A DNA stretch of 64,000 nucleotides from an uncultured Pelagibacteraceae bacterium (GTDB lineage Bacteria > Pseudomonadota > Alphaproteobacteria > Pelagibacterales > Pelagibacteraceae). Both the position numbers and the translations under genes were made by a program. The DNA is taken from assembly GCA_902583645.1 (NCBI GenBank), contig CACHWQ010000001.1, positions 1 through 64,000 on the forward strand, written 5' to 3'. Shown here in pieces: positions 3,872 through 36,329 of the stretch. A model generated the notes under the pieces. It searched no databases. It had not been told where the DNA came from and saw nothing but the letters and a program-made list of their open reading frames with translations. The stretch's first letter is position 1. Every line of letters begins with the position of its first letter.

Positions 3872-4978
3872 TCAAATCAAAAAAAATGTAAATATTAAAA
3901 TCACAAAGATTAAAAATACAAAAATAGAAAGTTTTTTATTATATTTAACTTTTTGTATAAGTTTATTAAAGTTATTTATTTGTAAAATTAATTTATCTTT
4001 GTTTGCACTACTTGAATAAAGGCCTTTAGTTCTTCCCATTGATAAAAATTTATTTTTTCTATTTTCTCGAATTTCATCACGATTTAAATCGGAGAATTCA
4101 ACTAAACTTTTTTCAATAGATTTTTTAACATTTTTTAATATCTCTTCTTTATCTCTATGGGCTCCTCCGGCAGGTTCTGCAATAATCTCATCTATAATTT
4201 TTAATTCTAATAAATCCCTTGATGAAAGTTTCATTGCCGTAGCAGCTTCTAATGTTTTCTTTGGATCTCTCCACAAAATTGAGGCACACCCTTCAGGAGA
4301 TATTACAGAATAAATAGCATTTTCTAACATTAAAACTTTACTTGATGATGCTAGTGCAATTGCTCCACCAGACCCACCTTCACCAATAATTATGGATATT
4401 GTTGGTACCTTTAATTGCATACAGCATTCAATTGACTTGGCAATCGCCTCTGCTTGTCCTCTTTCCTCTGCTCCTACCCCTGGATATGCACCAGGTGTAT
4501 CTATAAATAAAATAATCGGCAAATTAAATTTGTCTGCAAGCTTCATAAGTCTCACTGATTTTCTGTATCCCTCAGGCTTCATCATCCCAAAATTTCTCTC
4601 TATCCTGGTTTCTAGACTATCTCCTTTTTGCTGACCAATTACTAATACTGAAAGATTTTTAAATTTTGCAAATCCAGTTATTACTGATTTATCTTCTCCA
4701 TAATATCTATCTCCACTCAATGGAATAAAGTCAGAAAATATATTTTCAATAAAATATTTAGACTTAGGTCTATCCTCGTGTCTTGCTACCATTGTTTTTT
4801 GCCATGGATCAAGATTTGCATAAATATGCTTGAGCTTGTCATCTATTTCTTCCTGCAATTTAGAGATTTTATTTGTATCTACCTCGGAGAGACCTTCTTT
4901 ATTGTAAGGATCTTTTAAATTTTCTAACTCTGCCTCAAGTTCTTTAATATTTGTTTCAAAATTTAAGTAATTTTTCAT
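3872..4978 (-). CDS. accA: Acetyl-CoA carboxylase carboxyltransferase subunit alpha, with C-terminal membrane segment
   Basis: AccA pairs with AccD (also in this window at 27.3 kb) to transfer carboxyl from carboxybiotin to acetyl-CoA, giving malonyl-CoA for fatty acid synthesis. Family motifs include DTPGAYPGVGAEERGQ, the oxyanion region IIGEGGSGGA and SVISPEGCASILW. The usual AccA is about 315-320 residues and ends near the KFLSMG motif. This one has 368 residues: about 45 extra, ending in an uninterrupted hydrophobic run (roughly 350-368, LSIFVFLIFVILIFTFFLI) after a lysine-rich stretch. That looks like a C-terminal tail anchor. The ATG start gives the normal N-terminal coiled region (NFETNIKELEAELENL). 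Confidence 0.95.
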   Translation of the reverse strand: MKNYLNFETNIKELEAELENLKDPYNKEGLSEVDTNKISKLQEEIDDKLKHIYANLDPWQKTMVARHEDRPKSKYFIENIFSDFIPLSGDRYYGEDKSVITGFAKFKNLSVLVIGQQKGDSLETRIERNFGMMKPEGYRKSVRLMKLADKFNLPIILFIDTPGAYPGVGAEERGQAEAIAKSIECCMQLKVPTISIIIGEGGSGGAIALASSSKVLMLENAIYSVISPEGCASILWRDPKKTLEAATAMKLSSRDLLELKIIDEIIAEPAGGAHRDKEEILKNVKKSIEKSLVEFSDLNRDEIRENRKNKFLSMGRTKGLYSSSANKDKLILQINNFNKLIQKVKYNKKLSIFVFLIFVILIFTFFLI

Positions 4979-5060
4979 AATTTTCTAATATATTTCTTTA
5001 TCAATTTTCAATAGGCAATAAAATACTAAAAATAAAAAATCTAAAAATATTGATTAGAAT

Positions 5061-7247: not shown

Positions 7248-7856
7248 GTCTGCATCTAATCCGGTTCTATTTTTAAAAGCTAAATGAAGTGTACCGTCAT
7301 CAAGATTTTCAATTTCACCCCCGATAGGAAGACCTTGTCCTAACTTTGAAATTTTTACCTTCGAATTTTTAAGACTATCCCTAATATAGTATGCCGTTGT
7401 TTGACCTTCAACTGTAGCACTGGTTGCTAATATCACTTCATCAATCCTATCTTTGTTTACTCTTTCTATTAAAGAATTAATTAATAAATCCTCTTTTTTT
7501 TGTCCTACAGACGATATTGTCCCTCCTAATATATGAAAGTATCCTTCAAATATATTTGAACTTTCTATACTCCATTGATCAGCGATACTTTCTACTACAC
7601 ATATACTATTATATTTTTTTTTAACTACTTCACATTTATTGAAATTGCATTGAATCGAGCTCGGTTTTAACGAGCCACAAATATTGCATCTTGTAATATT
7701 TTTACATACTTCGGATAGTGCTTTTGCCATTGGTTTTGCGAGTTTCTCGTTGTTATTTATTAGTTTTAAGACAATTCGTTTTGCTGATTTTGGTCCTAAA
7801 CCTGGTAATTTTGAAATAAGTTTAATTAGATTTTCTATTTCATCAATATTTTGCAT
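7239..7856 (-). CDS. recR: Recombination protein RecR
   Basis: RecR (205 aa) acts with RecO and RecF to load RecA at gaps. Visible features are the N-terminal helix-hairpin-helix LPGLGPKSAKRIVLKL, a cysteine cluster, the Toprim domain (ICVVES near 88; EVILATSATVEGQTTAYYI) and the C-terminal GQGLPIGGEIENLD. The cysteines C57, C60, C70 and C75 have spacing C-x2-C-x9-C-x4-C, whereas the family usually shows C-x2-C-x8-C-x2-C, so the zinc finger is altered. It is the last gene of dnaX-ybaB-recR, a common bacterial order, with 3 bp between ybaB and recR. Confidence 0.95.
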   Translation of the reverse strand: MQNIDEIENLIKLISKLPGLGPKSAKRIVLKLINNNEKLAKPMAKALSEVCKNITRCNICGSLKPSSIQCNFNKCEVVKKKYNSICVVESIADQWSIESSNIFEGYFHILGGTISSVGQKKEDLLINSLIERVNKDRIDEVILATSATVEGQTTAYYIRDSLKNSKVKISKLGQGLPIGGEIENLDDGTLHLAFKNRTGLDADSD

Positions 7857-7859
7857 GTT

Positions 7860-8189
7860 TTACAGTGGCCACTTAAAACCAGGTATACCAAAACCGCCAG
7901 CTGCTTTTGATATTTCTTCAGAGGTTTTAGACTTGAGTTTTTCTTTTGCATTATTATGAGCAGCAATAATTAAATCTTCGATAATAGATTTTTTTTCTTT
8001 TAAAGTTTCTGGAGAAATGTAAATTTGTATCATCTCACCATCCCCGTTAAGTGTAACTTTAACAGACTCAGATCCCGATTTACCCTCAACTGAAATTTTT
8101 TTTAAATTTTCTTGACTCTCTTTCATTTTTTTTTCAAGATCTTTTGCTTTATTAATTATATCTGAAAAATCAGTCATTTTTTTTCTCAA
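7860..8189 (-). CDS. ybaB: YbaB/EbfC family nucleoid-associated protein
   Basis: A small 109-residue protein with an N-terminal amphipathic helix (DIINKAKDLEKKMKESQENL), a central beta region VKVTLNGDGEMIQIYISPE and the C-terminal motif KTSEEISKAAGGFGIPGF, all typical of YbaB/EbfC. Members are dimeric DNA-binding proteins encoded between dnaX and recR. The start overlaps the end of dnaX by 20 bp, suggesting translational coupling. The exact cellular role of the family is not settled. Confidence 0.94.
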   Translation of the reverse strand: MRKKMTDFSDIINKAKDLEKKMKESQENLKKISVEGKSGSESVKVTLNGDGEMIQIYISPETLKEKKSIIEDLIIAAHNNAKEKLKSKTSEEISKAAGGFGIPGFKWPL

Positions 8190-9825
8190 TTTCCACTAGT
8201 TCTGCATCAGAAAATTTTTCTATTACTTTTTTAAATGTTTCTGTTTTTTTTGCATATTCTATAAGGTTTTTTTTGCTTTCTATTTTAACGTCTTTAAAAG
8301 ATTTACCACCTTTTTCTTTGGTTAGACTTATTAACCATCTAATATTGGTCCAGTCTAGAAGTTTAGACGTAAGTAATTTTATAAACTCTTTATCTAATTT
8401 CTCGTTAAAAGATATTTCAATTCTTCCATATTCAAAACTAACGAGATTTACATTGGTTTCTAGTTCATATTTTAATTTCGCTTCTTTTTTTAAATAGCAT
8501 AAATTAATTAAATCATTTAAATTTTTAATTTCGATATCTTTGTCATCATTATTTTTAATCTTAGGTTTATTAATACTTTTTTCTTGAGTAATATTTTTAA
8601 TTTGATTTATTGCATCATTGTTAATAGAGTCTTTTTTTATTTGTATTGCATTTTCCACAGACTTTGTCACTTTATTGATTAAACTTGAATTATTTTTAAA
8701 CGATTTTACATGTAATAGTCTTATTAAAAACATTTCAATCGATATATTCTGATCTGAAACTATTTCTAACTCTTCGAGTGTTTTGAGAGTGAACTGCCAA
8801 AATAAAATTAATGTTTTGTTATCTAATTTACTTTTTAAATTTTTTATTAATTCAAATTGCTCATCATTTAAATCAAAGCTAATTGATTCACTCGATAAAT
8901 GTTCAATATTTTTAAAGTAATATAACAACTCAAGAAAATCATTTAAGAAAACTTTGGGTTCAACACCTTGATCATATATTTGTTTATAAATATTTAACAA
9001 TTTTTCCTGATCTCCTTTAAAAATAGCTTGAAAAAGAGTAATTAAATTTGATTTATCAAAACATCCAAATATTTTTTGCGCATCTTCTAATTCTAGAACT
9101 TTAGTTTTATCATTTGATAGAAGCGCTCTATCAAGTAAGGATAGCGAGTCTCTTACTGATCCTTCAGAAATTTTAACAATTAACTTAAGTGCATTGTCTG
9201 ATATATTACCATTTTCTAACTTATTTATTTTTTTTAAATAATTAAATAATTTACTGGATTTCACTCTTGATAAATCAAATCTTTGGCATCTTGACAACAC
9301 TGTAACAGGAATTTTTTTTATTTCTGTTGTAGCGAATATAAATTTAAGCGCTCCTCCATTTTTATATTCAGGTGGCTCCTCTAAAGTTTTTAATAATGCA
9401 TTGAAAGCTTGTTTACTTAACATATGAACTTCATCAATAATAAATATTTTGTACTTTGATGATGTTGGGCCATATCTTGAAAACTCAATTAAGTCTCTAA
9501 CATCTTCGACTCCAGTCTTGCTAGCAGCATCCATTTCCAAAACATCTATATGATTTGATCTCGCAATTGCTTTGCAATGACAATTTTCACAAGAGCTTTG
9601 ATTACCAATATTATCTATTCCATTTTTACAATTAAGAGCTTTAGCGACTAATCTTGCAAAGGTTGTTTTACCTACACCTCTTATTCCAGTAAACAAGTAT
9701 GCATTTGGAATTTTATTCTGTTTAATAGAATTAAATATTGTTTCGCTTACAATTTCTTGACCAACAACATCTTCAAAAACAACTGGTCTATATTTAAGTG
9801 CTAATACTTTTGAATTAGTGCTCAT
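8170..9825 (-). CDS. dnaX: DNA polymerase III subunit gamma/tau
   Basis: The clamp-loader ATPase (551 aa). Walker A GIRGVGKTT is at 47-55, the DEAD-like Walker B IFIIDEVHMLS near 130 and the sensor 1 region FIFATTEIKKIPVTVLSRCQRF after it. The zinc module has C66, C79, C82 and C84: the last three cysteines read CENCHC rather than the usual C-x2-C-x2-C, so one residue is missing. The lysine- and asparagine-rich C-terminal half is tau-like and poorly conserved. I cannot tell whether a separate gamma form is made. The SRP RNA gene lies directly upstream, as in other alphaproteobacteria. Confidence 0.96.
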   Translation of the reverse strand: MSTNSKVLALKYRPVVFEDVVGQEIVSETIFNSIKQNKIPNAYLFTGIRGVGKTTFARLVAKALNCKNGIDNIGNQSSCENCHCKAIARSNHIDVLEMDAASKTGVEDVRDLIEFSRYGPTSSKYKIFIIDEVHMLSKQAFNALLKTLEEPPEYKNGGALKFIFATTEIKKIPVTVLSRCQRFDLSRVKSSKLFNYLKKINKLENGNISDNALKLIVKISEGSVRDSLSLLDRALLSNDKTKVLELEDAQKIFGCFDKSNLITLFQAIFKGDQEKLLNIYKQIYDQGVEPKVFLNDFLELLYYFKNIEHLSSESISFDLNDEQFELIKNLKSKLDNKTLILFWQFTLKTLEELEIVSDQNISIEMFLIRLLHVKSFKNNSSLINKVTKSVENAIQIKKDSINNDAINQIKNITQEKSINKPKIKNNDDKDIEIKNLNDLINLCYLKKEAKLKYELETNVNLVSFEYGRIEISFNEKLDKEFIKLLTSKLLDWTNIRWLISLTKEKGGKSFKDVKIESKKNLIEYAKKTETFKKVIEKFSDAELVEIEKKND

Positions 9826-24615: not shown

Positions 24616-25229
24616 CACTTGAATGTAAAATATGTGGAGTTTCTGACTCTAAAATTTTAAACTTTATTGTAAATCATAAATTTTCACCACAATTTATTGG
24701 TTTCATTGTAAATTACCCAAAATCAAAACGTTATGTCAAATTAGATAAACTAAAAGAATTAATTAACATTGATAAAAGAAATTCACAATATGTAGCTGTT
24801 TTGGTTAAACCAAACGAAGATATATTAGAAAAAATAAAAGATTTAAAATTTGATTATTATCAAATCTATGACACCAGCCCGGAACAAATTAAGTCTATAA
24901 AAAGTAAATATAATAAAAAAATAATTTCTGCTATTACAGTAGAAACTAAAACGGATATAGAGAAATATAAAGAATTATTACCCTTTTCTGAAATAATATT
25001 ATTTGACTCAAAAGGATATGAAAAGTCTATAGGGTTCGATCATAGTATGTTAGAAAATATACCAGATAATTTTAAAAAAATGATTGCTGGGAATATTCAA
25101 ATCGATGATATTTTTAATTATAAAAATAAAAAATATATAATTGATGTTAGTGGAAGCCTTGAAGATACTAGTGGAAAAAAAAATATAGATAAAATTGATA
25201 AATTTTTGTCTGAAATAAATAAGGTATGA
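24612..25229 (+). CDS. trpF: Phosphoribosylanthranilate isomerase, divergent
   Basis: A 205-residue (beta/alpha)8 barrel protein at the trpF position before trpB and trpA. The catalytic cysteine motif KICGV is at 6-10 and the acid ILFDSK near 128-133, followed by MIAGNI and the C-terminal phosphate loop IDVSGSLEDTSGKKN (usual DVSSGVExxxGxKD). Sequence is otherwise far from typical TrpF, but both catalytic residues are kept. The ATGA overlaps with pyrF and trpB suggest coupled translation. Confidence 0.88.
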   Translation: MTLECKICGVSDSKILNFIVNHKFSPQFIGFIVNYPKSKRYVKLDKLKELINIDKRNSQYVAVLVKPNEDILEKIKDLKFDYYQIYDTSPEQIKSIKSKYNKKIISAITVETKTDIEKYKELLPFSEIILFDSKGYEKSIGFDHSMLENIPDNFKKMIAGNIQIDDIFNYKNKKYIIDVSGSLEDTSGKKNIDKIDKFLSEINKV

Positions 25230-26458
25230 AATTAAAAAAAAAAATATCTGTTTTAGACCAACATGATAAATTTGGTTTTTGGGGTGGTAAATTTGGTGGA
25301 AATTTTGTTCCTGAAACTCTAAAAAAACCTATTTATGATCTTGAATTATTATTTGATAAGTTGAAAAAGGATAAAATATTTTTGAGAGAGAGAGATAAAT
25401 ATTTTTATAATTGGGTTGGGGCGCCTACAAGATTTATTAAATTAAATAATCTAACTAATTTTATAGGGGGTGCTCAAATTTGGTCTAAAGTTGTATCTGA
25501 TGCAAATGGTGGTGCTCATAAAATTTACAATGCTACAGTTCATTGTTTATTGGCAAAAAGGTCAGGAAAAAAAGTAATCTGTGGAGACACAGGTGCAGGA
25601 TATGCGGGCAAGATGCTAAGTATGGCTGCGAAGAAATTTGGACTCAAATGTAAAATTTTTATGGGTGCAAAAGATATGGAGCGACAACAACCAAATGTAA
25701 AAGCAATGAAAAAGAATGGAGCAGAGGTCGTCCCAGTTTATACAGGTAGTCAAACCTTGGTTGATGCGGTTTCTGAATGTATGAGATTCTGGGTAGCAAA
25801 TTGTGATACAACTGCTATGTGCGTAGGTTCAACAGTAGGGCCAAATATTTTTGTTAGAATATGCGGATGGTCAACCAGTCAAATTTCGAGAGAACTTAAA
25901 GCACAAATTTTAGAAGAATTTGGAAACATTCCAAAAAAATTGAAGCTTTACAATTGCGTTGGGGGAGGAAGTTCGAGTTTTGGTTTTTGGAATGAGTTTA
26001 TGGATTATGACAAAAAGCAGGTAGAGTTTATCGGTGTTGAAGCGGGAGGACCAGCTAAAAGTAAAAAGCATGCGGCACCACTAACTTATGGTTCTAAAAT
26101 TGGAGTACTTCATGGCGCAGCTCAATATGTTAATCAAAATTCTGATGGTCAAATTGAGGAAACAGAATCAATTTCTGCTGGTTTAGATTATCCAGGAGTA
26201 TCACCACTTCATTGTTTTCTAAAAGATACCAAACGCGCAAGATACACCGCAGCAAGTGACGAAGATGCCTTGCTAGCTTTTAAAATAGTTTCAAAATATG
26301 AAAACTTAAGGCCATCCTTGGAACCCAGCCATGCATTTTCTGTGGCTATTACTGAGGCCAAAAAACTTTCTAGGGATACTATTGTTGTGGTTAATAGTTG
26401 TGGAGATGCATATAAAGACAGGAAAATATTGAAAAAAAGATTAGGTATTTCATTATGA
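25226..26458 (+). CDS. trpB: Tryptophan synthase beta chain, strongly divergent active site
   Basis: This 410-residue fold-type II PLP protein aligns over its whole length with TrpB, which joins indole and serine. GGAHKIYNA has the PLP lysine (K99), CVGGGSSSFGFW the phosphate loop, and ISAGLDYPGVSP the aspartate loop. Usual TrpB motifs are changed: ETGAGQHG is DTGAGYAG at 121-128 (the catalytic glutamate becomes aspartate), HTGAHK is ANGGAHK, GSVVGPHPYP is GSTVGPNIFV, and NLSGRGDKD is NSCGDAYKD at 390-398. Synteny trpF-trpB-trpA-accD-folC supports tryptophan synthase, but changed substrate use is possible. Confidence 0.87.
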   Translation: MKLKKKISVLDQHDKFGFWGGKFGGNFVPETLKKPIYDLELLFDKLKKDKIFLRERDKYFYNWVGAPTRFIKLNNLTNFIGGAQIWSKVVSDANGGAHKIYNATVHCLLAKRSGKKVICGDTGAGYAGKMLSMAAKKFGLKCKIFMGAKDMERQQPNVKAMKKNGAEVVPVYTGSQTLVDAVSECMRFWVANCDTTAMCVGSTVGPNIFVRICGWSTSQISRELKAQILEEFGNIPKKLKLYNCVGGGSSSFGFWNEFMDYDKKQVEFIGVEAGGPAKSKKHAAPLTYGSKIGVLHGAAQYVNQNSDGQIEETESISAGLDYPGVSPLHCFLKDTKRARYTAASDEDALLAFKIVSKYENLRPSLEPSHAFSVAITEAKKLSRDTIVVVNSCGDAYKDRKILKKRLGISL

Positions 26459-27255
26459 TTAGTCCAATAAGTAGAGCATTTAATATTGCGAAAAAACAAA
26501 ACAGGCCCGCGTTATTAACTTATACAGTTGCAGGAGATTATACAAAAAAAAAATCTTTTGAAATATTAAGTTCAATTTCAAGACATGTTGATATTTGCGA
26601 GTTAGGATTTGCACATAATACACCCATAGCAGATGGTGGACAAATCCAAACAAGTGCTTATAGAGCAATAAAAAATGATACAAAAATAAAAGATGTTTTT
26701 CAAATAGTTAAGAAATTTAAAAAAACTAAATTTCCTAAACCAATTATTCTTATGGGTTATTTTAATATGATATTGCAATATGGAGAAAATAAATTTTTAA
26801 ATCATTGCAAGAAAAATAAAGTAGATGGTTTAATTATAGTAGATTTGCCTTGGCCAGAAAATAAAAATTTTGCAAAGAAATGTAAACGTAGATCTATTTG
26901 TTATATTCAACTTCTTTCACCAACAACTTCATCCAAAAGACTTAGATCTATAGTAAAAGACTCTCATGAAATGATTTATTATATTTCAATGCTTTCAACA
27001 ACAGGTGGGAAGTTAAAAGTTTCGCCATCTAAGATCATAGCAAATTACAAAAAAATAAAAAAAATCAATCCAAGTAAAAACTGTGTTATTGGTTTTGGAA
27101 TTACAGAAAATACTATTTCAAAATTAAAATCAGCTGATGGACTAGTAGTTGGAAGCGCAATATGTAAAGAAATTACCAAAAGTTTGCAAAAAAGACAAAA
27201 TCCTGTCACAAAAGTAGACAATATGGTAAAAAAGCTTAAATCTAAAATAATATGA
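26455..27255 (+). CDS. trpA: Tryptophan synthase alpha chain, divergent
   Basis: A 266-residue barrel protein splitting indole-glycerol phosphate. E49 and D60, the two catalytic acids, are retained at the standard numbering, as is Y175. The loop between them is altered: the usual PFSDP is AHNTP at 53-57, so D56, which contacts the beta subunit in known structures, is threonine. SRAGVTG is SMLSTTG at 178-184. Phosphate-binding GFGI and VVGSAIC are present. It overlaps trpB by 4 bp (ATGA). The changes in TrpA and TrpB look like co-variation. Confidence 0.9.
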   Translation: MISPISRAFNIAKKQNRPALLTYTVAGDYTKKKSFEILSSISRHVDICELGFAHNTPIADGGQIQTSAYRAIKNDTKIKDVFQIVKKFKKTKFPKPIILMGYFNMILQYGENKFLNHCKKNKVDGLIIVDLPWPENKNFAKKCKRRSICYIQLLSPTTSSKRLRSIVKDSHEMIYYISMLSTTGGKLKVSPSKIIANYKKIKKINPSKNCVIGFGITENTISKLKSADGLVVGSAICKEITKSLQKRQNPVTKVDNMVKKLKSKII

Positions 27256-28190
27256 ATTGGATAAAAAAAACTCTTCGAATTGGTGAAAAAATAAAAAGAC
27301 TTATCAATAAGCACAGGCCAACAAAAGAAGAGATGGAAAAAAGTGATTGGGCATCTTGCTGTAAGGGTCCTATTTTAAAGAAAGATCTAGAAGAAAATTT
27401 ATGGGTGTGTCCAGGTCCATGTAGTAAACATTTTAGAATAAGTTCAAACCAAAGATTTGATGTTTTCTTTGGAAAAGAAAATTACGAAATTCTTAAAACA
27501 CCGATGCCAATCGATGACCCAATTTCATGGAAAGATACAAAACCTTATACAAAGAGACTGAAAGATGCCAGAAAGAAAAATGATCAAGAGTGTGGTGTAT
27601 TAATTGCCAAAGGAAAAATAAATAATATTGAATTAGTTTGTGCAGCTATGAACTTTAATTTTATTGGTGGTTCAATGGGTACTGCTGAAGGAGAAGCAAT
27701 TATATCAGGCATACAACACTCAATTGATAACTCAATTCCATTTGTAATTTTTACTTCAACTGGTGGAGCACGGATGATGGAGTCTGGTTTAAGCTTGATG
27801 CAAATGACAAGAACAGTATTGGCAGTTAATGAACTTAAAAATAAAAAATTACCTTATATTGTGTGTATGTGCTCACCCACTAGTGGTGGAGTCACTGCTT
27901 CGTTTGCAATGCTTGGCGATATTCAAATAGCAGAACCTGGAGCAGAAATAATTTTTGCTGGCCGTCGTGTAATAGAATCTACAATCAAAGAGGAATTGCC
28001 AGAAAACTTCCAAACTGCTGAACATACAATGAAATGTGGGTTTGTTGATACGATTATAGCAAGAAAGGATTTACCTGAAAAAATAGGGATATTATTATCA
28101 ATATTGCTTAACAAAAATTCTGAGGTAAATTCTTCTTCAGAAAATGAAACTTCAGAAAATACTCAGCAACTTTCAAAAGTTGCATCCTAA
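27252..28190 (+). CDS. accD: Acetyl-CoA carboxylase carboxyltransferase subunit beta
   Basis: AccD (312 aa) partners AccA. The crotonase-like domain has GGSMGTAEGEAI, FTSTGGARMMESGLSLMQM and SPTSGGVTASFAMLGD. The N-terminal zinc ribbon normally reads CPSC...CPKCGHHF; here it is CCKG...CPGPCSKHF with cysteines 36, 37, 53 and 57. The first pair is adjacent and the second pair is spaced by three residues. The following DLEENLWVC and HFRIS segments are normal, so alignment around the change is secure. The gene follows trpA and overlaps folC by 47 bp. Confidence 0.95.
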   Translation: MNWIKKTLRIGEKIKRLINKHRPTKEEMEKSDWASCCKGPILKKDLEENLWVCPGPCSKHFRISSNQRFDVFFGKENYEILKTPMPIDDPISWKDTKPYTKRLKDARKKNDQECGVLIAKGKINNIELVCAAMNFNFIGGSMGTAEGEAIISGIQHSIDNSIPFVIFTSTGGARMMESGLSLMQMTRTVLAVNELKNKKLPYIVCMCSPTSGGVTASFAMLGDIQIAEPGAEIIFAGRRVIESTIKEELPENFQTAEHTMKCGFVDTIIARKDLPEKIGILLSILLNKNSEVNSSSENETSENTQQLSKVAS

Positions 28191-29412
28191 AGAAATTGAT
28201 CTTAGCTTAGATCGTATAAAAAACCTCTGCGAAAAATTAGGGAGTCCTCATAACGATATAAAATGTATTCAAGTTTGTGGAACCAACGGAAAAGGAAGCA
28301 CAATTTCTTTTTTACATTCGATACTTAAGGAGGCTAAAATAAAATGTAATGTTTATACTTCGCCTCATGTAAGGTCAATTAATGAAAGATTTATTTATAA
28401 TGATGAAATTATAAACGATGACGAACTTGCAGAATTATTGGAGGAAGTGGAGGATATAAATGATGGCCAACCTCTTACATATTTTGAGGCTCTTACAGCT
28501 GCTTTTTTTTATGGATGTCGAAAATATAAAGATAATATCGTTCTTGCAGAATTTGGTCTTTTTGGAAGGGGAGATGCAGTTAATATCTTAAACAAAAATC
28601 TTTGTAATATTGTGACATCAATTAGCGAAGATCATTTAGATTGGTTGCCAGAAAATGAACGAAATATAGAAAGAATTATTTTTGAAAAGACTTCATCATT
28701 ACTTGAGTCGAATATAATAATTGCAAAACAATCTTCTAGAGAAATTACTGAAAGTATTAAAAAAAATATTTCAAAAAATAGAGCAAATAAATATTTTTTT
28801 AACGAAGATTATAATTTTGTTATGAAAAAAAACGATTTTTTTTATTACGAGGATAAGTATGGAGGTTTAAAAATACCAAAACCAAGTATGAAAGGTCAAT
28901 TTCAGTTAGAAAATGCATCTTCAGCAATTGCATCATTGCGAGTTTTAGAAAATTTAAATATCAAAGATAATCACATAATAAATGGGGTCAAAAAAGCCTA
29001 TAATTCAGCTAGGCTTGAGGAAATTAAATCTGGCAAACTTAAAAATTTAGTAAGAGATAATATCCTAATTGTTGACTCTTCTCATAATCCTGGAGGATCC
29101 AAATCTTTAAATGAGTATCTTCAAACTTTAAATTGCAATAAACATGTTATTATTGGAATGATGGAAAACAAAGATCATGAAAAATTCATAAGTTATTTTA
29201 AAAATATTTCATCTTTGACTGTGATAGATATACCCAATCAAGTAAATGCAATAAGTGGAAAAAAGCTAAAAGAGAAATTTAAAAATTTTTCAAATTTAAG
29301 TTTTAGTGAAAACATTGAGCAAGCTTTGAAAGATTTAAGGTTAAATCAAGATGATATTGTTATAATAACTGGATCTATTTATTTAACAGGAGAAGTGCTT
29401 AATCTAAATTAA
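28144..29412 (+). CDS. folC: Folylpolyglutamate / dihydrofolate synthase
   Basis: A 422-residue Mur-ligase-family protein. The ATP loop is VCGTNGKGSTISFLHSIL near 44-60, then TSPHVRSINERF, EDHLDWLPEN and DSSHNPGGSKSL (the C-terminal domain motif). It adds glutamate to dihydropteroate or folates. The start lies 47 bp inside accD; the next in-frame ATG would remove the conserved N-terminal helix. It ends 3 bp into the convergent trxA gene. Confidence 0.94.
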   Translation: MKLQKILSNFQKLHPKEIDLSLDRIKNLCEKLGSPHNDIKCIQVCGTNGKGSTISFLHSILKEAKIKCNVYTSPHVRSINERFIYNDEIINDDELAELLEEVEDINDGQPLTYFEALTAAFFYGCRKYKDNIVLAEFGLFGRGDAVNILNKNLCNIVTSISEDHLDWLPENERNIERIIFEKTSSLLESNIIIAKQSSREITESIKKNISKNRANKYFFNEDYNFVMKKNDFFYYEDKYGGLKIPKPSMKGQFQLENASSAIASLRVLENLNIKDNHIINGVKKAYNSARLEEIKSGKLKNLVRDNILIVDSSHNPGGSKSLNEYLQTLNCNKHVIIGMMENKDHEKFISYFKNISSLTVIDIPNQVNAISGKKLKEKFKNFSNLSFSENIEQALKDLRLNQDDIVIITGSIYLTGEVLNLN

Positions 29413-29726
29413 AGATTTTCTTGTAAAAAATCTCGCATTTGTTGTTCGGGTAATCCACCAACTTTTCTCGCAACTTCGACACCTTTTTTATAGACGACTA
29501 CTGTAGGTACACCTCGCACTGCAGCAGCAGATGCTGAATTAATTGCTTTCTCATCTATATCTGCATAGTAAAAATTTGCTTTGTCTTTAAACTCATCTGA
29601 AAGCTTTTCCATAATCGGTTTTAGAACTTTACAAGGGCCGCACCAAGAAGCTGAAAATTGAAGAATTGAAACATCTTCGTTTTTTACCTTACTTTCAAAG
29701 TCACTGTCTAAAAAATCTATAAGCAT
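29409..29726 (-). CDS. trxA: Thioredoxin
   Basis: A 105-residue thioredoxin with the redox site SASWCGPCKVLKPIM, cis-proline motif VRGVPTVVVYKKG and C-terminal helix. It reduces protein disulfides in the cytoplasm. In many alphaproteobacteria trxA lies between folC and addA; here the order folC-trxA is kept, but the next gene is an exonuclease I homologue rather than addA. Confidence 0.96.
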   Translation of the reverse strand: MLIDFLDSDFESKVKNEDVSILQFSASWCGPCKVLKPIMEKLSDEFKDKANFYYADIDEKAINSASAAAVRGVPTVVVYKKGVEVARKVGGLPEQQMRDFLQENL

Positions 29727-29760
29727 TTAATTTATTTAAATTATTATGATGTAAAGTCAA

Positions 29761-31194
29761 CTAGGCATTTTCATATTTTTGTTGAACCGACATAACGTAA
29801 CTGTTGATAGTTTCTAAAGTTTTAAGTGTTTCTGCATCGTTTTCATTGTCATACTGATCTCTAAGTGTATCAATTTCTGAAAAACACATATTAACCGTCC
29901 ACCATCTTTCTTTTTTTTCACTCAGGATCCTTTTAGCTATTCCTCTTTTTACAGAGTTAAAAATATCTTTTGGTAAAGTGTCTGGCGATTCTTGATATAT
30001 GATCTTTTTTCCAAAAGCTCTCATTCTTTCATCATCAAATTTGTCAAGTAGATTAAGTTTATCTTTCCAAGATGCGCTGTGCCAGGCAGGAAACAAGGCT
30101 GTATCTTTGTTTGAAGTAAATTTTGTATATATACTTTCCTCAGCATAAATATCCTCCTGGGATTTAGTTTGTTCTTTTTCCTCAGCATTTTCTCTTAAAG
30201 CGATTAGGATATTTTGAGAAAATTTTTCATTGGTTCTTATCAGCTCTGCTCTTTTTTTTAATAAATCCGTTGTCATTACATTATATGGTTCAAACTTCAT
30301 ACCTTCTTCAGCATCTAAAATCACTGGCGCTTTATTAGATCTAATTGTCCTTAAAAATTTAGGTGATTTTTTCATTTCAATCTTAAGCTCATTTATTGAC
30401 ATATTAAGTAATGGAACTGGATCAACTCTTAAGTCTACAGCTTGACCCCACTGATAAACTGGATGAATACAATATTTAGGATGTAAAGGTGCACATAAAT
30501 GAAATTTATTTTTTCCATAGTAGTATTCTACCAAAGTAATCATTTGCTCCTTTTTAAAAATTGTCTCTGTATCTGCTTTACTGTAGGTTCTTAAAAGTGA
30601 TGGCCATAGTTCTGGTTTACTTTTTTCTTTCACAAGTTTTAGAATTTTATAGGTATTAATTGCATCCACTTGGGCCGTATGGGCAGCTGATACATCAAAG
30701 CCTTGGAGCCTGCTAAGAGATTCAAGCTTCATACTGACGTTGCCTTTTTCATTGAGCTCTGTTTTCAATATTTTAGGATTAATACCATATGCAGCCCTTA
30801 TAATATTCAAGGCATCATGACGTTTATTAGGTGAAGCATTAGTTATGTATGGATACCTGAGATTTTTAAAGAAAGACTTTCTTATAAGTTCACAATCGAA
30901 ATTTATATTGGAAAAGCCCATAAAAATTGCAGGCGACCACTTCTTAAAAATCTTTTCGACTTGATCAAGCAACATATAGTTTGAAAGATTTGATTTAGTT
31001 AATTGATCAATTGTAGTTCCATTTACTAATAAGGCTTTAGCTTGTGGGATTTCTCCCTCGGGAATCCTTCCCCTTAAATTAAATCTGTCAATTTCATTAA
31101 AATTTTCATCAATTAGAACTCCACCTATTTCAATTATTGAGGACCATTCTGTAATGGCTCCAGTGGATTCTATATCGTATATTGCTATCTTCAT
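29761..31194 (-). CDS. sbcB: Exodeoxyribonuclease I (SbcB family)
   Basis: A 477-residue 3'-5' single-strand DNA exonuclease of the ExoI type. The DEDDh catalytic set is visible: YDIESTGA (D7, E9), MGFSNINFDCELIRKSFF, and AAHTAQVDAINTYKIL with H-x4-D. The SH3-like and helical C-terminal regions follow (LRTIRSNKAPVILDAE, then FPAWHSASWKDKL). SbcB is best known from gammaproteobacteria. Here it leads sbcB-family genes directly upstream of trxA, where addA is expected in alphaproteobacteria. The 116-bp upstream gap holds an inverted repeat. Confidence 0.9.
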   Translation of the reverse strand: MKIAIYDIESTGAITEWSSIIEIGGVLIDENFNEIDRFNLRGRIPEGEIPQAKALLVNGTTIDQLTKSNLSNYMLLDQVEKIFKKWSPAIFMGFSNINFDCELIRKSFFKNLRYPYITNASPNKRHDALNIIRAAYGINPKILKTELNEKGNVSMKLESLSRLQGFDVSAAHTAQVDAINTYKILKLVKEKSKPELWPSLLRTYSKADTETIFKKEQMITLVEYYYGKNKFHLCAPLHPKYCIHPVYQWGQAVDLRVDPVPLLNMSINELKIEMKKSPKFLRTIRSNKAPVILDAEEGMKFEPYNVMTTDLLKKRAELIRTNEKFSQNILIALRENAEEKEQTKSQEDIYAEESIYTKFTSNKDTALFPAWHSASWKDKLNLLDKFDDERMRAFGKKIIYQESPDTLPKDIFNSVKRGIAKRILSEKKERWWTVNMCFSEIDTLRDQYDNENDAETLKTLETINSYVMSVQQKYENA

Positions 31195-31309
31195 AATTTT
31201 TTCTAGAAGTTTTTGATATTTTTAGGATTGTAAAAAGAATTTAACTTTTTGCATCTAAACAAGTAGCTTCTAGTTAACTTAAATACTTCTATAACTTGAT
31301 TGAATAAAG

Positions 31310-31996
31310 TCAAGAAATATTGCTTATTTCATAGAACTTTTTTACTCTTCCTAAAAATAGGTTTTGATACATTTCTAATTCTGCTCCTTCAATTTTAAAT
31401 TCTTGATACAAGTTATCCACAGTACATAATAGGATTACTCCTGCTTTCATTTTTGTTCCGTGAACAATATCGTGGGCCAGCGTGTATGCACCAAGTTGTA
31501 AAAAGTAATCCTGAATATAGTCTGATTTTTTTGGTTTATTACTTTGCTTGAAGTCAATACATACTTCTTGACCCATAAATTTTCCAATTAGGTCAGCTGT
31601 TCCGGCATATTTTTTTGGATAAAAAACAGTTTCTTCAATTCCATAAATTTCTTCCAATTTCCCCTTAATTCCTTTCTCAATTATTTCTCTAGCCATAATT
31701 TTGTATTGCTCGTTACTTTCAAAAAAACTTTCATTCACCCTGCCCTTTAAATAATCTTCAATATATGAATGCATAGATGAGCCTCTTGAAGATGCTTCGG
31801 TTTTAATTCTATTTGCTTCTTTATAACCAACTCGCTGTTTCCACAATTCAAGTGATGCTTTATCCTCTTCTGATTTAGTAGCCGAAAGTATAGATGTCAC
31901 GCTTGGGAGTTTATCGTCTCCAAATAAGTATTTTCTAAAACCACCTTCATTTGATCTTGAGGATTTCGGATAATTAAACTTATTATTCCACTTCAT
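31310..31996 (-). CDS. PD-(D/E)XK exonuclease, phage-like
   Basis: A 228-residue nuclease. PSVTSILSATKSEEDKASL near the start, SSRGSSMHSYIEDYLKG (histidine and glutamate before the core), YAGTADLIG with the first catalytic aspartate, and CIDFKQSNKPKK with D-x-K fit the PD-(D/E)XK fold. DYFLQLGAYTLAHDI follows. The pattern resembles exonucleases carried by marine cyanophages and pelagiphages, from memory of those proteins. It lies 13 bp after rmuC on the same strand and before sbcB, suggesting a DNA end-processing unit. Role in the cell unknown; no other phage genes are near. Confidence 0.83.
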   Translation of the reverse strand: MKWNNKFNYPKSSRSNEGGFRKYLFGDDKLPSVTSILSATKSEEDKASLELWKQRVGYKEANRIKTEASSRGSSMHSYIEDYLKGRVNESFFESNEQYKIMAREIIEKGIKGKLEEIYGIEETVFYPKKYAGTADLIGKFMGQEVCIDFKQSNKPKKSDYIQDYFLQLGAYTLAHDIVHGTKMKAGVILLCTVDNLYQEFKIEGAELEMYQNLFLGRVKKFYEISNIS

Positions 31997-32009
31997 CCTT
32001 AATATTTTA

Positions 32010-33068
32010 TCAGGATATTTTTCTTTTATCTACTTGTGCATATGCACTTACCGGTGACGGTGTATCTGGATCCGGATCATCATCTTCATCTTTATTTTTT
32101 ATGTTTTCTAGTGATCTATAAATTGATCGTGCATCTTTTCCAAAACTATCAACTACCGACATAGATTCCTCTAATTTTTTTCTTAATATAATTACATTAT
32201 CAAAATGTCTTGAAAATCGAGTAGAGATAGTATTAAGGTCTTTAAAAATTTGTGTAGCATTTTTCTGTAATTTTAAACTTGTGAACCCTAAATGAAATGA
32301 TTGGATAAGTGCACATATCGTATTAGGACCGGCAATCGTAACTTTATATTTTTTTCTTAATTCCTCAATTAGCAGTTCCTTTGTTTTAGGATCCCTATAA
32401 CTCACAAGTTCTGCATATAAACCCTCTGTAGGTACAAAAATAATTGCAAAATCACATGTTACTGGAGGATTAATATATTTCTGGTTAACAGTTTTTGATT
32501 TGGATCTAAATGCTGATGCAAGATCGTGCCGCGCAGATGAAAGAGCCTCTTTATCTTTATTTTGAAATGCTTCATCAACCGCTTTATATTTTTCAATTGG
32601 CCAATGACTATCAATAGGACAAAGGACATCATTTTGAAGTTTTACTGCAAACTCCACTAGATCTCTTGTTTCATCAGGTTTCATTTTTGCATTGGCTATA
32701 TATTGAGATGCCGGGAGTAAGTCTTGCAGTAGCGTGGCTAAGCTAAACTCACTTAACCCACCATATTGTTTTACTCCAGCAAGAATTCTACTAAAATTAT
32801 TTTGACTTGTTTGTATGTCTTCAACTTGTTTATTAAAGGAGGCCACTTTTTCATCTACCCTTGATAAAGTTCCCGTCATATCTTTTGCAACTTCTTTGCT
32901 CATATTACTAAAAGACTCGTTAAGTGAAACTTTTAATCCTGTGATGTCATCCTTAATTTTTGACAGTTCTGTAAAATCTTCTTTATTAGAGTGTTTTTGA
33001 AGTTTAAAAAATAAGTAAACGTTAAAAAACAATACAGCCACTAATAAAATAATTATTAATATATCCAT
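32010..33068 (-). CDS. rmuC: DNA recombination protein RmuC
   Basis: RmuC family, 352 aa. An N-terminal membrane segment (about 3-23, ILIIILLVAVLFFNVYLFF) precedes a coiled coil and the PD-(D/E)XK-related core with ARHDLASAFRSKSKTV, DFAIIFVPTEGLYAEL and AGPNTICALIQSFHLGF. The family limits inversions at short repeats and is thought to be nuclease-like. It starts a minus-strand run rmuC-PDDEXK-sbcB. The end DEDDDPDPDTP is acidic and low complexity. Confidence 0.92.
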   Translation of the reverse strand: MDILIIILLVAVLFFNVYLFFKLQKHSNKEDFTELSKIKDDITGLKVSLNESFSNMSKEVAKDMTGTLSRVDEKVASFNKQVEDIQTSQNNFSRILAGVKQYGGLSEFSLATLLQDLLPASQYIANAKMKPDETRDLVEFAVKLQNDVLCPIDSHWPIEKYKAVDEAFQNKDKEALSSARHDLASAFRSKSKTVNQKYINPPVTCDFAIIFVPTEGLYAELVSYRDPKTKELLIEELRKKYKVTIAGPNTICALIQSFHLGFTSLKLQKNATQIFKDLNTISTRFSRHFDNVIILRKKLEESMSVVDSFGKDARSIYRSLENIKNKDEDDDPDPDTPSPVSAYAQVDKRKIS

Positions 33069-33099
33069 GATTCTATTATATGAGATAATATAGAATAAA

Positions 33100-33225
33100 A
33101 TGGAATTAGTAATTAAATTATTTGTGTTAATAAGTTTAATATTAGCTTTATATGTATTGATACGTAATTTTGATGTCTTAAAAATAATATTAATATATTT
33201 TAAAGACTTATTGTTTAGAAAATAA
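33100..33225 (+). CDS. Possible 41-aa single-pass membrane protein
   Basis: An open frame too short for usual gene finders starts with ATG at 33100 and ends at TAA 33225. The product is mostly one hydrophobic segment (MELVIKLFVLISLILALYVL) followed by a basic end (YFKDLLFRK). It starts 31 bp from the divergent rmuC start and overlaps the convergent hisG end by 18 bp. It is the only content of the rmuC-hisG gap. Coding is not proven, since AT-rich DNA yields such runs by chance. Confidence 0.4.
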   Translation: MELVIKLFVLISLILALYVLIRNFDVLKIILIYFKDLLFRK

Positions 33226-33900
33226 CTTTATTAAACCCTGTAACCCTTTTTTACTTTTTGATTTTTTTGAGCTAATTAAGCAAGCTTGTGACTTAAGTAT
33301 TTCACCATCACTTAAAGGTCTAAGGTGATTTTTTTTCATTGTAGTTCCTGTACTGGAAATATCGCTTACTAACATAGCAGTATCCATTGCGGGCATTAAT
33401 TCTGTACTTCCTAAAGACTTTACAATAGTGAAATTTGTTACTCCTCGCTTATACAAAGCATCACGTGTAAGATTTGGATACTTCGTACCAATACGAATTA
33501 GTTTTTTGTTTTTTTTTCTATAATCTTCTGCAACTTCATCTAAATCTAAAGTTGTGAAAACATCGATAAATTCTTTTCGAACAGCTAGCTGCAAAGTAGC
33601 AAAGCCAAATTTAAGTTTCTTTTCAACTCTTATATTTTTTTGAATATTTATCTCAGACTCCATCAGTAGATCAAAACCACTTATTCCTAAATCAATATTT
33701 CCTAAAGATAATTGATCAATAATTTCTCTAGCATGAAGAAATAATACTCTTATATTTTTTCTACCCTTAACTTTGGCTACCAACCCTCTTTCACCATCTT
33801 CTGTATAAATTTTTAAATTATTTTTTCTGAAAATTTTTTCAGACTCTTCTTTAAGTCTTCCTTTTGAAACAATACCTATATTAATAATATCTTTATTCAT
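33208..33900 (-). CDS. hisG: ATP phosphoribosyltransferase, short form
   Basis: HisG (230 aa) catalyses the first step of histidine synthesis. Its length marks the short HisG(S) type that lacks the C-terminal regulatory domain and needs HisZ, which is directly upstream. Motifs include GIVSKGRLKEES, LGISGFDLLMES, RIGTKYPNLTRDALYKRG and DISSTGTTMKKNHLRPL (the phosphoribosyl loop). It overlaps hisZ by 8 bp. Confidence 0.95.
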   Translation of the reverse strand: MNKDIINIGIVSKGRLKEESEKIFRKNNLKIYTEDGERGLVAKVKGRKNIRVLFLHAREIIDQLSLGNIDLGISGFDLLMESEINIQKNIRVEKKLKFGFATLQLAVRKEFIDVFTTLDLDEVAEDYRKKNKKLIRIGTKYPNLTRDALYKRGVTNFTIVKSLGSTELMPAMDTAMLVSDISSTGTTMKKNHLRPLSDGEILKSQACLISSKKSKSKKGLQGLIKLFSKQ

Positions 33901-34954
33901 AAACTCCTAAATTTACTGCCGCTCCAACTGCTGGTATTTTTCTAAGACCTAAATTTTTTGAGGACAATTCGTTATATCTTCCGCCTGCAATAAATGTTTT
34001 TGTCTTACCTTTTATTTTTACATCTATTGAAAATATAAACGAACTGTAAAACTCTACTTCTCTACCTCTGCCGCTAGATGTCGAAAATTCAAATTTAAGA
34101 TCTTTTTGGTTGGGTGTTGAAATAGGAAAAAATTCCTTTGAAACAGAAATGTTTAAATTATATTTTTTATAAAAAGCGTTTAGTTTTTTTGGTGCATCTT
34201 TTAAAGAACACTTAATTTTTAAAAATTCTTTAATTATCTTCGAACTTGTTTTTCCTGTTTTTGTCAATCTTGGATCGTTGATTTTTCTTTCATATCGTTC
34301 AATTATTTCCTCATATGTTCTTCCAGCAATCATTTTTTTTGGATATTCCTTTTTCATTTTCAAATATGTTTTGTGATCTCCAGCAACAATGAAGGGGTCT
34401 ATATCTGAATTACTATCTAACCTTTTTAGTAACTGTGAAAAATATTCTTTATTCCAATAAAATTTGATAAGACGATCCTTCCATCTTTGGGGTATAGAAA
34501 GTTTTTGAATTAATAATTCGAATAGCTTGAAATTACCAATTTCAACCTTAGCTTTTTTAAAACCTGTTTTTTTTAAAACTTTTATAGATGTATCTATTAT
34601 TTCTCTATCATCTTTATTTTCATCTTTAGATGAAAAAATTTCCATTCCTATTTGTTTTATTAAAATATTTTTCTTGTTATAAGATTTTCTAAATGCACTG
34701 CCCATATAAAACACTTTTTCCTTATTAAATCTGTTTCCTTGAGCATATCGCAATACTGAGGAAATTGTTAAATCTGGTCTTAAACATAACTCATCGCCGT
34801 TTGAGTTATAAAATGAAAATAGATACTTTCTAAAATTTTCCCCCGATCTTTGCAAAATGTATTTGGTTTCCAAAACAGAGTCGAGTTCAATTTTGTTAAA
34901 TCCCTGCGATTTAATTAATGCAAGGATTTTGTTAGACGAATTTTTTGATTTCAT
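33893..34954 (-). CDS. hisZ: ATP phosphoribosyltransferase regulatory subunit
   Basis: HisZ is a catalytically inactive histidyl-tRNA synthetase paralogue that activates short HisG. Class II core elements appear: ELCLRPDLTISSVLRY (motif 2-like) and FIAGGRYNELS. I choose the ATG at 34954 (353 aa, starting MKSKNSSNKILALIKSQG), which overlaps hisS by 23 bp. A longer frame from 35008 would add 18 basic residues read inside hisS and seems less likely. The order hisS-hisZ-hisG is kept in related alphaproteobacteria. Confidence 0.9.
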   Translation of the reverse strand: MKSKNSSNKILALIKSQGFNKIELDSVLETKYILQRSGENFRKYLFSFYNSNGDELCLRPDLTISSVLRYAQGNRFNKEKVFYMGSAFRKSYNKKNILIKQIGMEIFSSKDENKDDREIIDTSIKVLKKTGFKKAKVEIGNFKLFELLIQKLSIPQRWKDRLIKFYWNKEYFSQLLKRLDSNSDIDPFIVAGDHKTYLKMKKEYPKKMIAGRTYEEIIERYERKINDPRLTKTGKTSSKIIKEFLKIKCSLKDAPKKLNAFYKKYNLNISVSKEFFPISTPNQKDLKFEFSTSSGRGREVEFYSSFIFSIDVKIKGKTKTFIAGGRYNELSSKNLGLRKIPAVGAAVNLGVYE

Positions 34955-36329
34955 TGATAAAGTTTTCTTTTGGGATTGTAATTTGATTGTTTTCCCCTTT
35001 TGCGCCAAGCAAATTTTTTAGTGTAATAGTATTCTCTTTAAACTCGTTTTCTCCACAAATTACCGCTACCGGACATCCTCTTTTATTTGCATAAGTTAGT
35101 TGCTTTCCAAGATTTTTTTCACTATCTAAAAAAATTTCAGAGTTTATTCCGTTATCTCTGAGAATTTTGAGTATTTCATAATAGTTCTTGAGGTATTTTT
35201 TATCCATTACGCAAACAATTGCTGGTTTCTTTCTATCTACTTCTATTTGTCCTAGCTGCAAAATTGCAAATAATAATCTATCTACTCCAACGCTAAATCC
35301 AGTGCCTGGAATGTCTACCCCTTTAAACCTTGATATTAGCTTGTTGTACTGACCACCTGAACAAATGCTGCCGATATCAACCTCCTTGCCCTTATTATTA
35401 GTAATTTTAAATTTCAGATTAGTTTCAACACAGAATCCGTCATAATATGCGAGACCTCTTACAATTGTGAAATTAGTTTTTACTTGATCGATATAATCTC
35501 CATAACTTAAAATCTCGTATAATTGCTCAATTTCGTTGATGCCCTCTAAGGTGAGTGAACTTTGAAAATTTTTCTTTAGTTCTTTAAGGTCTTTAATTTT
35601 TAAGAAATCGATTATTTGAGATGCTTGATCATCGCTTAAATTTGCACCTTTTGTAACTGCACCGCTTTTATCTTTTCTTTCTTTTTTCAATAAATCCTCA
35701 ACACCTTTTAATCCAAAACCTGGTTTATCAAGCTTATCTATTGCTCTCATAACTTTAACTTGTTTTTCCTCTGGAATTTTTAAGTCTTGTATTAAACCCT
35801 GGATTATTTTTCTATTACTCACGTTAATGATAAATTGATCTTTTTTAAGCCCACAATTTATTAAAGTGCTTGCTATTAAATTGCATAATTCTGCATTTGA
35901 TTGTGCTGAATTTACGTTTCCTACTATATCGCAATCTGCTTGAGTAAATTCCCTATAACGAGCGTTGCCAGCTTTTTCGTTTCTAAAAACATTTTGAATA
36001 GCATAACGTTTATAAGGTAGGGGAAGTTGTTGATTGTTCTGCGCAACAAATCTCGCTAGAGGACTTGATAAGTCATATCTAAGTGTAATATTTCTTTCTC
36101 CATCGTTAAAAGTAAATACATCAGACATAGGATTGCTATCATCATCTGCAAGAAATGATCCGATGTTTTCACTAATTTCAAAAGATGGTGTTTCCAATGG
36201 TTCAAAACCATATTTTATAAAATTTTCCTCAATTAACCTAAGAAGTTTCTTTTTGAGGTATAATCTTTTGTCCCATCTATCTTCAAAACCTGAAGGTAGT
36301 CCAGGTATGAGTTTTTTGTTTTTTTCCAT
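34932..36329 (-). CDS. hisS: Histidyl-tRNA synthetase
   Basis: HisRS, 465 aa from the ATG at 36329 (MEKNKKLIPGLPSGFEDRW). An upstream ATG at 36377 lies inside the tRNA-His gene and is rejected. Motif 2 is ITLRYDLSSPLARFVAQN with FRNEKAGNARYREFTQADCD. The histidine loops are VRGLAYYDGF and SGGQYNKLI, and the ATP-side motif is GTGFSVGVDRLL. A C-terminal anticodon-binding domain follows. Only 4 nt separate the start codon from the CCA of tRNA-His, so there is no room for a ribosome-binding site after tRNA processing. Confidence 0.95.
   Translation of the reverse strand: MEKNKKLIPGLPSGFEDRWDKRLYLKKKLLRLIEENFIKYGFEPLETPSFEISENIGSFLADDDSNPMSDVFTFNDGERNITLRYDLSSPLARFVAQNNQQLPLPYKRYAIQNVFRNEKAGNARYREFTQADCDIVGNVNSAQSNAELCNLIASTLINCGLKKDQFIINVSNRKIIQGLIQDLKIPEEKQVKVMRAIDKLDKPGFGLKGVEDLLKKERKDKSGAVTKGANLSDDQASQIIDFLKIKDLKELKKNFQSSLTLEGINEIEQLYEILSYGDYIDQVKTNFTIVRGLAYYDGFCVETNLKFKITNNKGKEVDIGSICSGGQYNKLISRFKGVDIPGTGFSVGVDRLLFAILQLGQIEVDRKKPAIVCVMDKKYLKNYYEILKILRDNGINSEIFLDSEKNLGKQLTYANKRGCPVAVICGENEFKENTITLKNLLGAKGENNQITIPKENFINEIKKFV

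Follow-up and report, generated by a model that had tools for sequence, protein, structure and literature searches.

An exonuclease I-type gene and a phage-type MGME1-like nuclease gene where addBA once lay in a SAR11 lineage

In 64,000 nucleotides of DNA from an uncultured Pelagibacteraceae bacterium (assembly GCA_902583645.1, contig CACHWQ010000001.1, positions 1 to 64,000; this whole stretch is the window below), three nuclease genes lie between trxA and hisG: sbcB, a gene for a small PD-(D/E)XK exonuclease (called PD here), and rmuC. By gene order, this interval is the ancestral site of addB and addA on its trxA-folC side, and no AddA or AddB is detected in the lineage above model cut-offs. 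The reading we prefer, with a probability of roughly 0.6, is that SbcB and the phage-type, MGME1-like PD protein form a pair that takes over end-processing jobs at the site which AddAB once held. The genes concerned are the following.

29761..31194, minus strand: sbcB, exonuclease I-type DEDDh 3'-5' exonuclease; 477 amino acids (aa); Pfam RNase_T and Exonuc_X-T_C
31310..31996, minus strand: PD, predicted MGME1-like PD-(D/E)XK exonuclease; 228 aa; PDDEXK_1, phrog_298 and MGME1 homology
32010..33068, minus strand: rmuC; 352 aa; Pfam RmuC at 2.6e-45, 155 bits against a cut-off of 26
29409..29726, minus strand: trxA, which flanked the old locus next to addA and has been kept; Pfam thioredoxin at 3.1e-22
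28144..29412, plus strand: folC, the convergent retained neighbour and synteny anchor; Mur_ligase_M and Mur_ligase_C domains
33208..33900, minus strand: hisG, which closes the interval at its far end in the window's genus, placed by synteny; Pfam HisG at 3.7e-32

The open reading frames of the window run trpF-trpB-trpA-accD-folC on the plus strand and, facing them on the minus strand, hisS-hisZ-hisG-rmuC-PD-sbcB-trxA, with hisZ and hisS domains identified by Pfam and folC named from its two ligase domains together with gene order. trxA is convergent with folC and stands downstream of the three nuclease genes on their strand, the intergenic gaps being 13 bp (rmuC-PD), 115 bp (PD-sbcB) and 34 bp (sbcB-trxA). 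An earlier note on this DNA had described three same-strand genes of the RmuC, small PD-(D/E)XK and exonuclease I-type families with a 13-bp gap between the first two, and both the open reading frame map and the profile matches agree. It had also let the nuclease genes follow trxA; the adjacency holds but the direction does not, since transcription runs rmuC, PD, sbcB, trxA and not outward from trxA. The RmuC domain exceeds its curated cut-off and is the only RmuC match of the window's own genome, an assembly of 1.06 Mb in 39 contigs that is 82% complete.

We compare this locus with 121 genomes of the order, 73 from the window's genus (g1) and 48 from the sister family (f2), and with genomes from across the class. 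No AddA (TIGR02784) exceeds its cut-off in any of the 121 order genomes, the window's own 82% complete genome included, and AddB (TIGR02786) has no match in them, which bears out the suspicion in the earlier note that the lineage may have lost AddAB. Weak AddA-profile matches below the cut-off do occur in 92 of the 121, most of those listed falling in reading frames of about 650-755 aa. The one in the window's own genome is a 678-aa UvrD/PcrA-type helicase, which scores 755 and 611 bits with PcrA and UvrD models versus 125 with AddA. Across the class, by comparison, AddA matches at E<=1e-100 in 98 of 115 genomes (over the cut-off in 78). Among the best-scoring 20 of these 98 addA loci, trxA lies directly downstream of addA in 17, and folC is on the opposite strand in all five whose short flank reaches it; longer stretches from two genomes (G129 and G174) read addB-addA-trxA with folC convergent, addB there being named by position, size and mutual homology. 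The alphaproteobacterial order given in the earlier note, trp-acc-fol-trx-add, is thus the right one. By this gene order the window's interval marks, on its trxA-folC side, the place where addBA stood ancestrally, and hisG, on the other side, is a genus-specific neighbour.

What occupies the site is similar throughout the order. In the sister family, folC is convergent with trxA, rmuC and sbcB, in that order, in 12 of 13 mapped loci; in the thirteenth other genes intervene, and a fourteenth stops at folC. sbcB is found in 43 of the 48 genomes of this family and rmuC in 42. G218, a complete genome from the window's family but from a different genus, reads rmuC-sbcB-trxA, a gene of 183 aa, then folC, with no PD. 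Because the sister-family loci and this genome share both genes at the site, comparative gene order identifies sbcB with rmuC as the order-wide occupant of the old addBA site. The idea in the earlier note of a three-gene substitute module is supported in part; a joint arrival of the three is not, sbcB and rmuC being present in both families of the order and PD having apparently been added once, in one genus. Its contrary possibility, a coincidental adjacency in one strain, does not agree with the synteny survey, in which the neighbours are kept across relatives.

rmuC is adjacent to PD and on the same strand in 41 of 57 PD-bearing g1 genomes; in the remainder it stands apart from PD, points the other way, is on a different contig or was not detected. 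In one genome (G009) it has an in-frame TGA. By these patterns it is a looser partner than sbcB. The RmuC proteins found at the site are of several divergent types, some encoded on the opposite strand (sister-family loci L080-L093; genus loci L061, L065 and L071), which suggests repeated exchange.

Linkage between PD and sbcB is far tighter. PD is found in 59 of the 121 order genomes, 58 of them in the genus and one on a contaminant-like contig of a sister-family genome (G117), and in two of 289 genomes of a class-wide draw, both from the window's genus. One of the 58 (G057) has PD on a contig judged phage-like by its neighbours; it is kept outside the 57 PD-bearing genomes (of 73) and outside the RecJ comparison below. 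In all 57, PD and sbcB share a contig, lying at most 300 bp apart in 54 and with rmuC between them in three, and in 56 they are on one strand. The same holds among named relatives, whose records are labelled 'Pelagibacteraceae' or 'Pelagibacterales' and come mostly from single cells, which marks this as a SAR11 lineage. At least 440 loci matched; among the best 80, sbcB directly follows PD in 75, rmuC lies between in four, and in one the contig ends after PD. The 15 genus genomes without PD comprise eight that also lack folC and sbcB, in which we read the region as unassembled, three (G006, G007 and G013) with only the C-terminal part of sbcB, and four with sbcB, to which we return below. The contaminant-looking contig of G117 (C25, locus L094) seems to come from the window's genus and carries a 54%-identical SbcB and a folC of the 64%-identity class; G117 does not count as a PD carrier of the sister family and is kept in that family's sbcB and RecJ tallies. 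The phage-like contig of G057 (C67, locus L069) carries a phage version of PD.

Pairwise identities of PD and sbcB covary (rho 0.76, 21 loci), as compared with a rho of 0.16 for PD and rmuC (11 loci) and 0.08-0.14 for PD and other neighbours. The flanks provide no usable baseline here, for trxA and hisG identities are themselves uncorrelated (rho 0.11, 15 loci) and the flanks disagree among themselves. Three relatives (G004, G005 and G031) have a folC only about 45% identical to the window's although their PD is 77-81% identical. Because of this drop in folC identity and the uncorrelated identities of flanking genes, allele replacement around the locus (window 25226-35008 and relatives) is probable.

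One could suppose that there is no functional link at all: streamlining removed addBA, and unrelated nucleases settled in a recombination-prone interval and were kept for separate housekeeping. The interval is indeed a hotspot with shuffled gene order in which rmuC comes and goes and flanking-gene identities disagree, and sbcB has no match in 11 of 17 AddA-less class genomes. Against this, PD adjoins sbcB, or is parted from it only by rmuC, in every one of the 57 genomes despite the shuffling, the identities of the two covary, sbcB is enriched in AddA-less genomes, and addBA has been exchanged for sbcB in a lineage outside the order (both described below). We regard an absence of any link as quite unlikely.

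We now turn to the proteins themselves. The window's SbcB exceeds the Pfam cut-offs for both RNase_T and Exonuc_X-T_C, its family profile matches E. coli exonuclease I structures at 1.5e-52, and D7, E9, D100, H172 and D177, which we take to be the DEDDh catalytic residues, are invariant in a 13-row alignment. It thus has both domains and the catalytic residues of E. coli exonuclease I. It differs in scoring 141.2 bits with the NCBIfam ExoI equivalog NF008746, below the cut-off of 260 bits, and in standing at the addAB site of an AddAB-less lineage. By these profiles it is a divergent exonuclease I-type protein outside the ExoI equivalog. It also matches phrog_19080 (5e-52), although no phage record matched sbcB.

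PD exceeds the PDDEXK_1 cut-off of 22 bits at 22.5, and matches the phage exonuclease family phrog_298 at 1e-49 over residues 6-222, near its full length. In the PDB, the only sequences matched at E<=0.01 are those of human MGME1, the mitochondrial genome maintenance exonuclease 1 that trims mitochondrial DNA (5.5e-8 with the single sequence, 1.3e-16 with the family profile; 21-24% identity). An AlphaFold2 model of PD (predicted local distance difference test score, pLDDT, 92.6; predicted template modelling score, pTM, 0.88) matches MGME1 with Z 22.1 and 2.2 Å over 188 residues, followed by RecE (Z 13.6), AddAB (11.4) and lambda exonuclease (about 9). H76, E121, D135, D148 and K150 of PD are invariant in a 17-row alignment, and in a pairwise alignment they correspond to H180, E223, D238, D251 and K253 of MGME1, its catalytic residues (PMC6237815). 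MGME1 is described as a bidirectional exonuclease of single-stranded DNA (PMC11551736). Sequence and model together thus make PD a homologue of human MGME1 with intact catalytic residues. It resembles MGME1 in fold, in the family-profile match and at the five aligned catalytic positions; it differs in being a bacterial chromosomal gene next to sbcB at low identity, and its activity is a prediction.

Could PD instead be a degenerate remnant of the nuclease domain of AddB or AddA, left at its own locus? The shared locus, a PDDEXK_1 score just over the cut-off and the presence of AddAB among the fold matches would fit. MGME1, however, is a far better fold match than AddAB, the phage-family match covers almost the whole protein, the host proteins form one clade among phage sequences (with a midpoint root), and no PD copy of its own was found in the sister family. 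An AddB-type iron-sulphur cluster follows a four-cysteine rule, and the two cysteines of PD are too few for one. We reject an AddB-remnant origin on fold, tree and distribution and give the remnant idea as a whole almost no credence.

The tree points to phages. Thinning at 93% identity left 94 of the 134 sequences for it, and it has a midpoint root and a program warning on long branches; the 23 host PD sequences fall on one side of a single branch (support 100/99) and, under that root, are nested among viral ones. Because they form one branch nested among viral sequences, PD apparently derives from a single, phage-derived acquisition followed by retention. The dN/dS ratio (nonsynonymous to synonymous substitution rates) is 0.03-0.06 in three pairs, indicating purifying selection. 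The family is present in 940 of 50,697 phage records, the closest of them marine, and PD is 38-45% identical to its relatives in HTVC023P, HTVC027P and 023Pt_psg01 and 43-51% identical to those on viral contigs (80 kept of at least 575). These contigs matched in a scan with the PD alignment; a scan with a single PD sequence gave no match. On plasmids the family is in 21 of 72,556 records, mostly from Thermus, at no more than about 32% identity among the ten matches listed. The likeness to marine-phage exonucleases proposed in the earlier note is therefore upheld by the tree and phrog_298, the more precise description being MGME1-like.

Near-full-length homology ties PD to the phrog_298 exonucleases of pelagiphages (HTVC023P and HTVC027P), marine phage 023Pt_psg01, cyanophages and jumbo phages. 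The difference is that the host genes form one separate clade and stand beside sbcB, whereas sbcB or rmuC occurs in the fetched flanks of none of the 80 viral PD loci kept (of at least 575). With tblastn at E<=1e-3, sbcB is matched in none of the 50,697 phage records; rmuC is matched in four, all of them unannotated faecal 'Bacteriophage sp.' records. A phage origin of the trio as a whole is not supported by these searches.

A separate possibility is that these nucleases mainly protect the cell against phages or other foreign DNA, as part of a defence hotspot; they would break down linear DNA that enters, helped by RmuC and other cargo. In genus relatives the trxA-hisG side is a hotspot, with cargo between trxA and hisG or beside hisG (L060, L066, L067, L074 and L095): a PbeA-type defence helicase in L060 (2e-130), type II methylases with restriction-enzyme-like genes in L066 and L074, and in L095 an AAA_15 ATPase matching several defence models, along with what we presume from reading to be Hsp70-like, LRR and M48 proteins. 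Moreover, the window's SbcB scores higher with the PADLOC model RTasSbcB (9e-71, 237 bits) than with the ExoI model (141 bits), and its RmuC weakly matches RTasRmuC (1.1e-4). DRT-associated SbcB/RmuC systems, as listed in PADLOC, have a reverse transcriptase among their neighbours. The window's neighbourhood differs in having none among its genes from folC to hisS, all of which are assigned by Pfam. In two marine phages (HTVC027P and 023Pt), furthermore, the nearest PD relatives lie between the DNA polymerase A and large terminase genes, a phage metabolic context, and PD with sbcB is kept under purifying selection in nearly every genus genome with an assembled region, unlike the variable cargo. 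We count a primarily defensive role as the main rival reading, though an unlikely one.

Two further families recur in this part of the genome. One, uncharacterised and about 125-157 aa long, stands in sbcB's gene row in seven relatives, and the four members scanned have no Pfam match over the cut-off:

L060:8033-8449: uncharacterised family member
L061:12681-13136: uncharacterised family member
L065:5272-5679: uncharacterised family member
L067:13183-13614: uncharacterised family member

The other is common to six relatives, and one of its members has an S24-peptidase domain.

If SbcB and PD stand in for lost enzymes, their distribution should be informative. Few genomes of the class (8 of 115) have an sbcB of the window's type, and these are 6 of 17 AddA-less versus 2 of 98 AddA-positive genomes (Fisher p = 1e-4, uncorrected for phylogeny; G000 and G218 share one family). 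Restricting the comparison to genomes with a completeness of 90% or more and no more than 5% contamination, which sets aside G220, gives 4 of 11 versus 1 of 80 (p = 6e-4), and leaving out the window's own genome gives 5 of 16 versus 2 of 98 (p = 5e-4). G128 is not a member of the order; its sbcB has TsaE, APH and nucleotidyltransferase genes on one side and trxA on the other. In G129 addB is preceded by TsaE and APH homologues, and in G174 it adjoins a homologue of the nucleotidyltransferase. Judged by these neighbours, sbcB replaces addBA exactly in this one other lineage. In G169 sbcB likewise lies between a TsaE homologue and trxA.

RecJ provides a second comparison. It has a match in 41 of 48 sister-family genomes versus 14 of 73 in the genus, and when the genus genomes are ordered by PD identity to the window's, and not by a species tree, RecJ is matched in none of the 33 with PD at least 63% identical and in 10 of the 24 with more divergent PD. 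These 33 genomes have a mean completeness of 78-80%, nine of them being 90-96% complete. Since RecJ persists in part of the divergent group and in none of the close one, PD gain appears to be earlier than RecJ loss. There would then be two substitution signals, one from sbcB where AddA is lacking and a possible one from the MGME1-like gene where RecJ is lacking.

These results suggest the following scheme, in which enzymatic activity, joint action and replacement of AddAB or RecJ function are all things that we infer from sequence. SbcB, an exonuclease I-type 3'-5' exonuclease of single-stranded DNA, would occupy the vacated addBA site order-wide, usually with RmuC; in the ancestor of the genus, a phage-type MGME1-like exonuclease gene would have been inserted beside sbcB and then kept. 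A UvrD-type helicase, or replication at forks, may expose single-stranded tails, of which SbcB would trim the 3' ones, while the MGME1-like enzyme would trim 5' (and 3') single-stranded ends and flaps. Such a trimming pair would be helicase-free, with RmuC auxiliary, and would cover the jobs of AddAB and, in the derived subclade, those of RecJ; the trimmed ends may be used by RecA, or the fragments degraded.

Several observations weigh against this scheme. E. coli exonuclease I counteracts RecF-pathway recombination and is not an obvious stand-in for AddAB, and the SbcB/MGME1-like pair has no helicase and, to our knowledge, no RecA-loading function. The sister family shows no PD of its own, though it also lacks AddAB. 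Besides the AddA-less class genomes in which sbcB finds no match, two that do have it (G143 and G150) carry it elsewhere and not at this site. Of the 57 PD copies, four are damaged or truncated, possibly through assembly error: the gene is in two pieces in G036, carries an in-frame TAA in G064 and is incomplete in G030 and, at a contig end, in G071. Finally, the four genus genomes with sbcB and no PD (G022, G040, G066 and G067) have no RecJ match either, so neither enzyme is indispensable, and this argues against PD as a condition for RecJ loss. Three of these four (loci L061, L062 and L063) carry at the site a nuclease-helicase of about 1,120 aa (RNase_H_2 with AAA_11/AAA_12), and the same three also carry a RecB/Cas4-type nuclease of 254-258 aa, as though the position had passed to other nucleases. 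In L061 the two genes are:

4128-7502: nuclease-helicase
8024-8800: RecB/Cas4-type nuclease

A bolder version of the scheme holds that a phage MGME1-type nuclease, captured once beside exonuclease I, took over the trimming of single-stranded ends and allowed the later loss of RecJ, leaving an AddAB-less, RecJ-less system that parallels MGME1-based mitochondrial DNA handling. We offer this as a tentative suggestion, possible but on balance doubtful.

How does the proposed pair compare with what is known? It shares with AddAB and RecBCD the position next to trxA-folC, a proposed role in end processing and, in part, PD-(D/E)XK chemistry; it differs in belonging to other families, without helicase domain or fused subunits. 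PMC12374537 reports RecBCD as absent from SAR11 Ic and IIa.A and RecF from some SAR11 subclades, with a RecOR route suggested; its section on these losses names no replacement nuclease and does not treat this locus, to which we add RecJ loss and the MGME1-like gene. We found no description of the cluster in full-text literature on SAR11 repair genes or alphaproteobacterial AddAB loss, in which few subscription papers were covered. The components are known; their arrangement seems to be new, as does the proposed MGME1-like substitution.

SAR11 bacteria rank with the most numerous cells of the ocean. They recombine heavily and lack much of the standard repair set. With this locus there are named candidate enzymes for DNA end processing where addAB used to lie, and RecJ loss is added for the window's closest subclade. 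The nuclease pair may account for the way such streamlined cells deal with broken DNA. If our reading is true, a nuclease from phages would have become part of core DNA metabolism, in a manner reminiscent of mitochondria.

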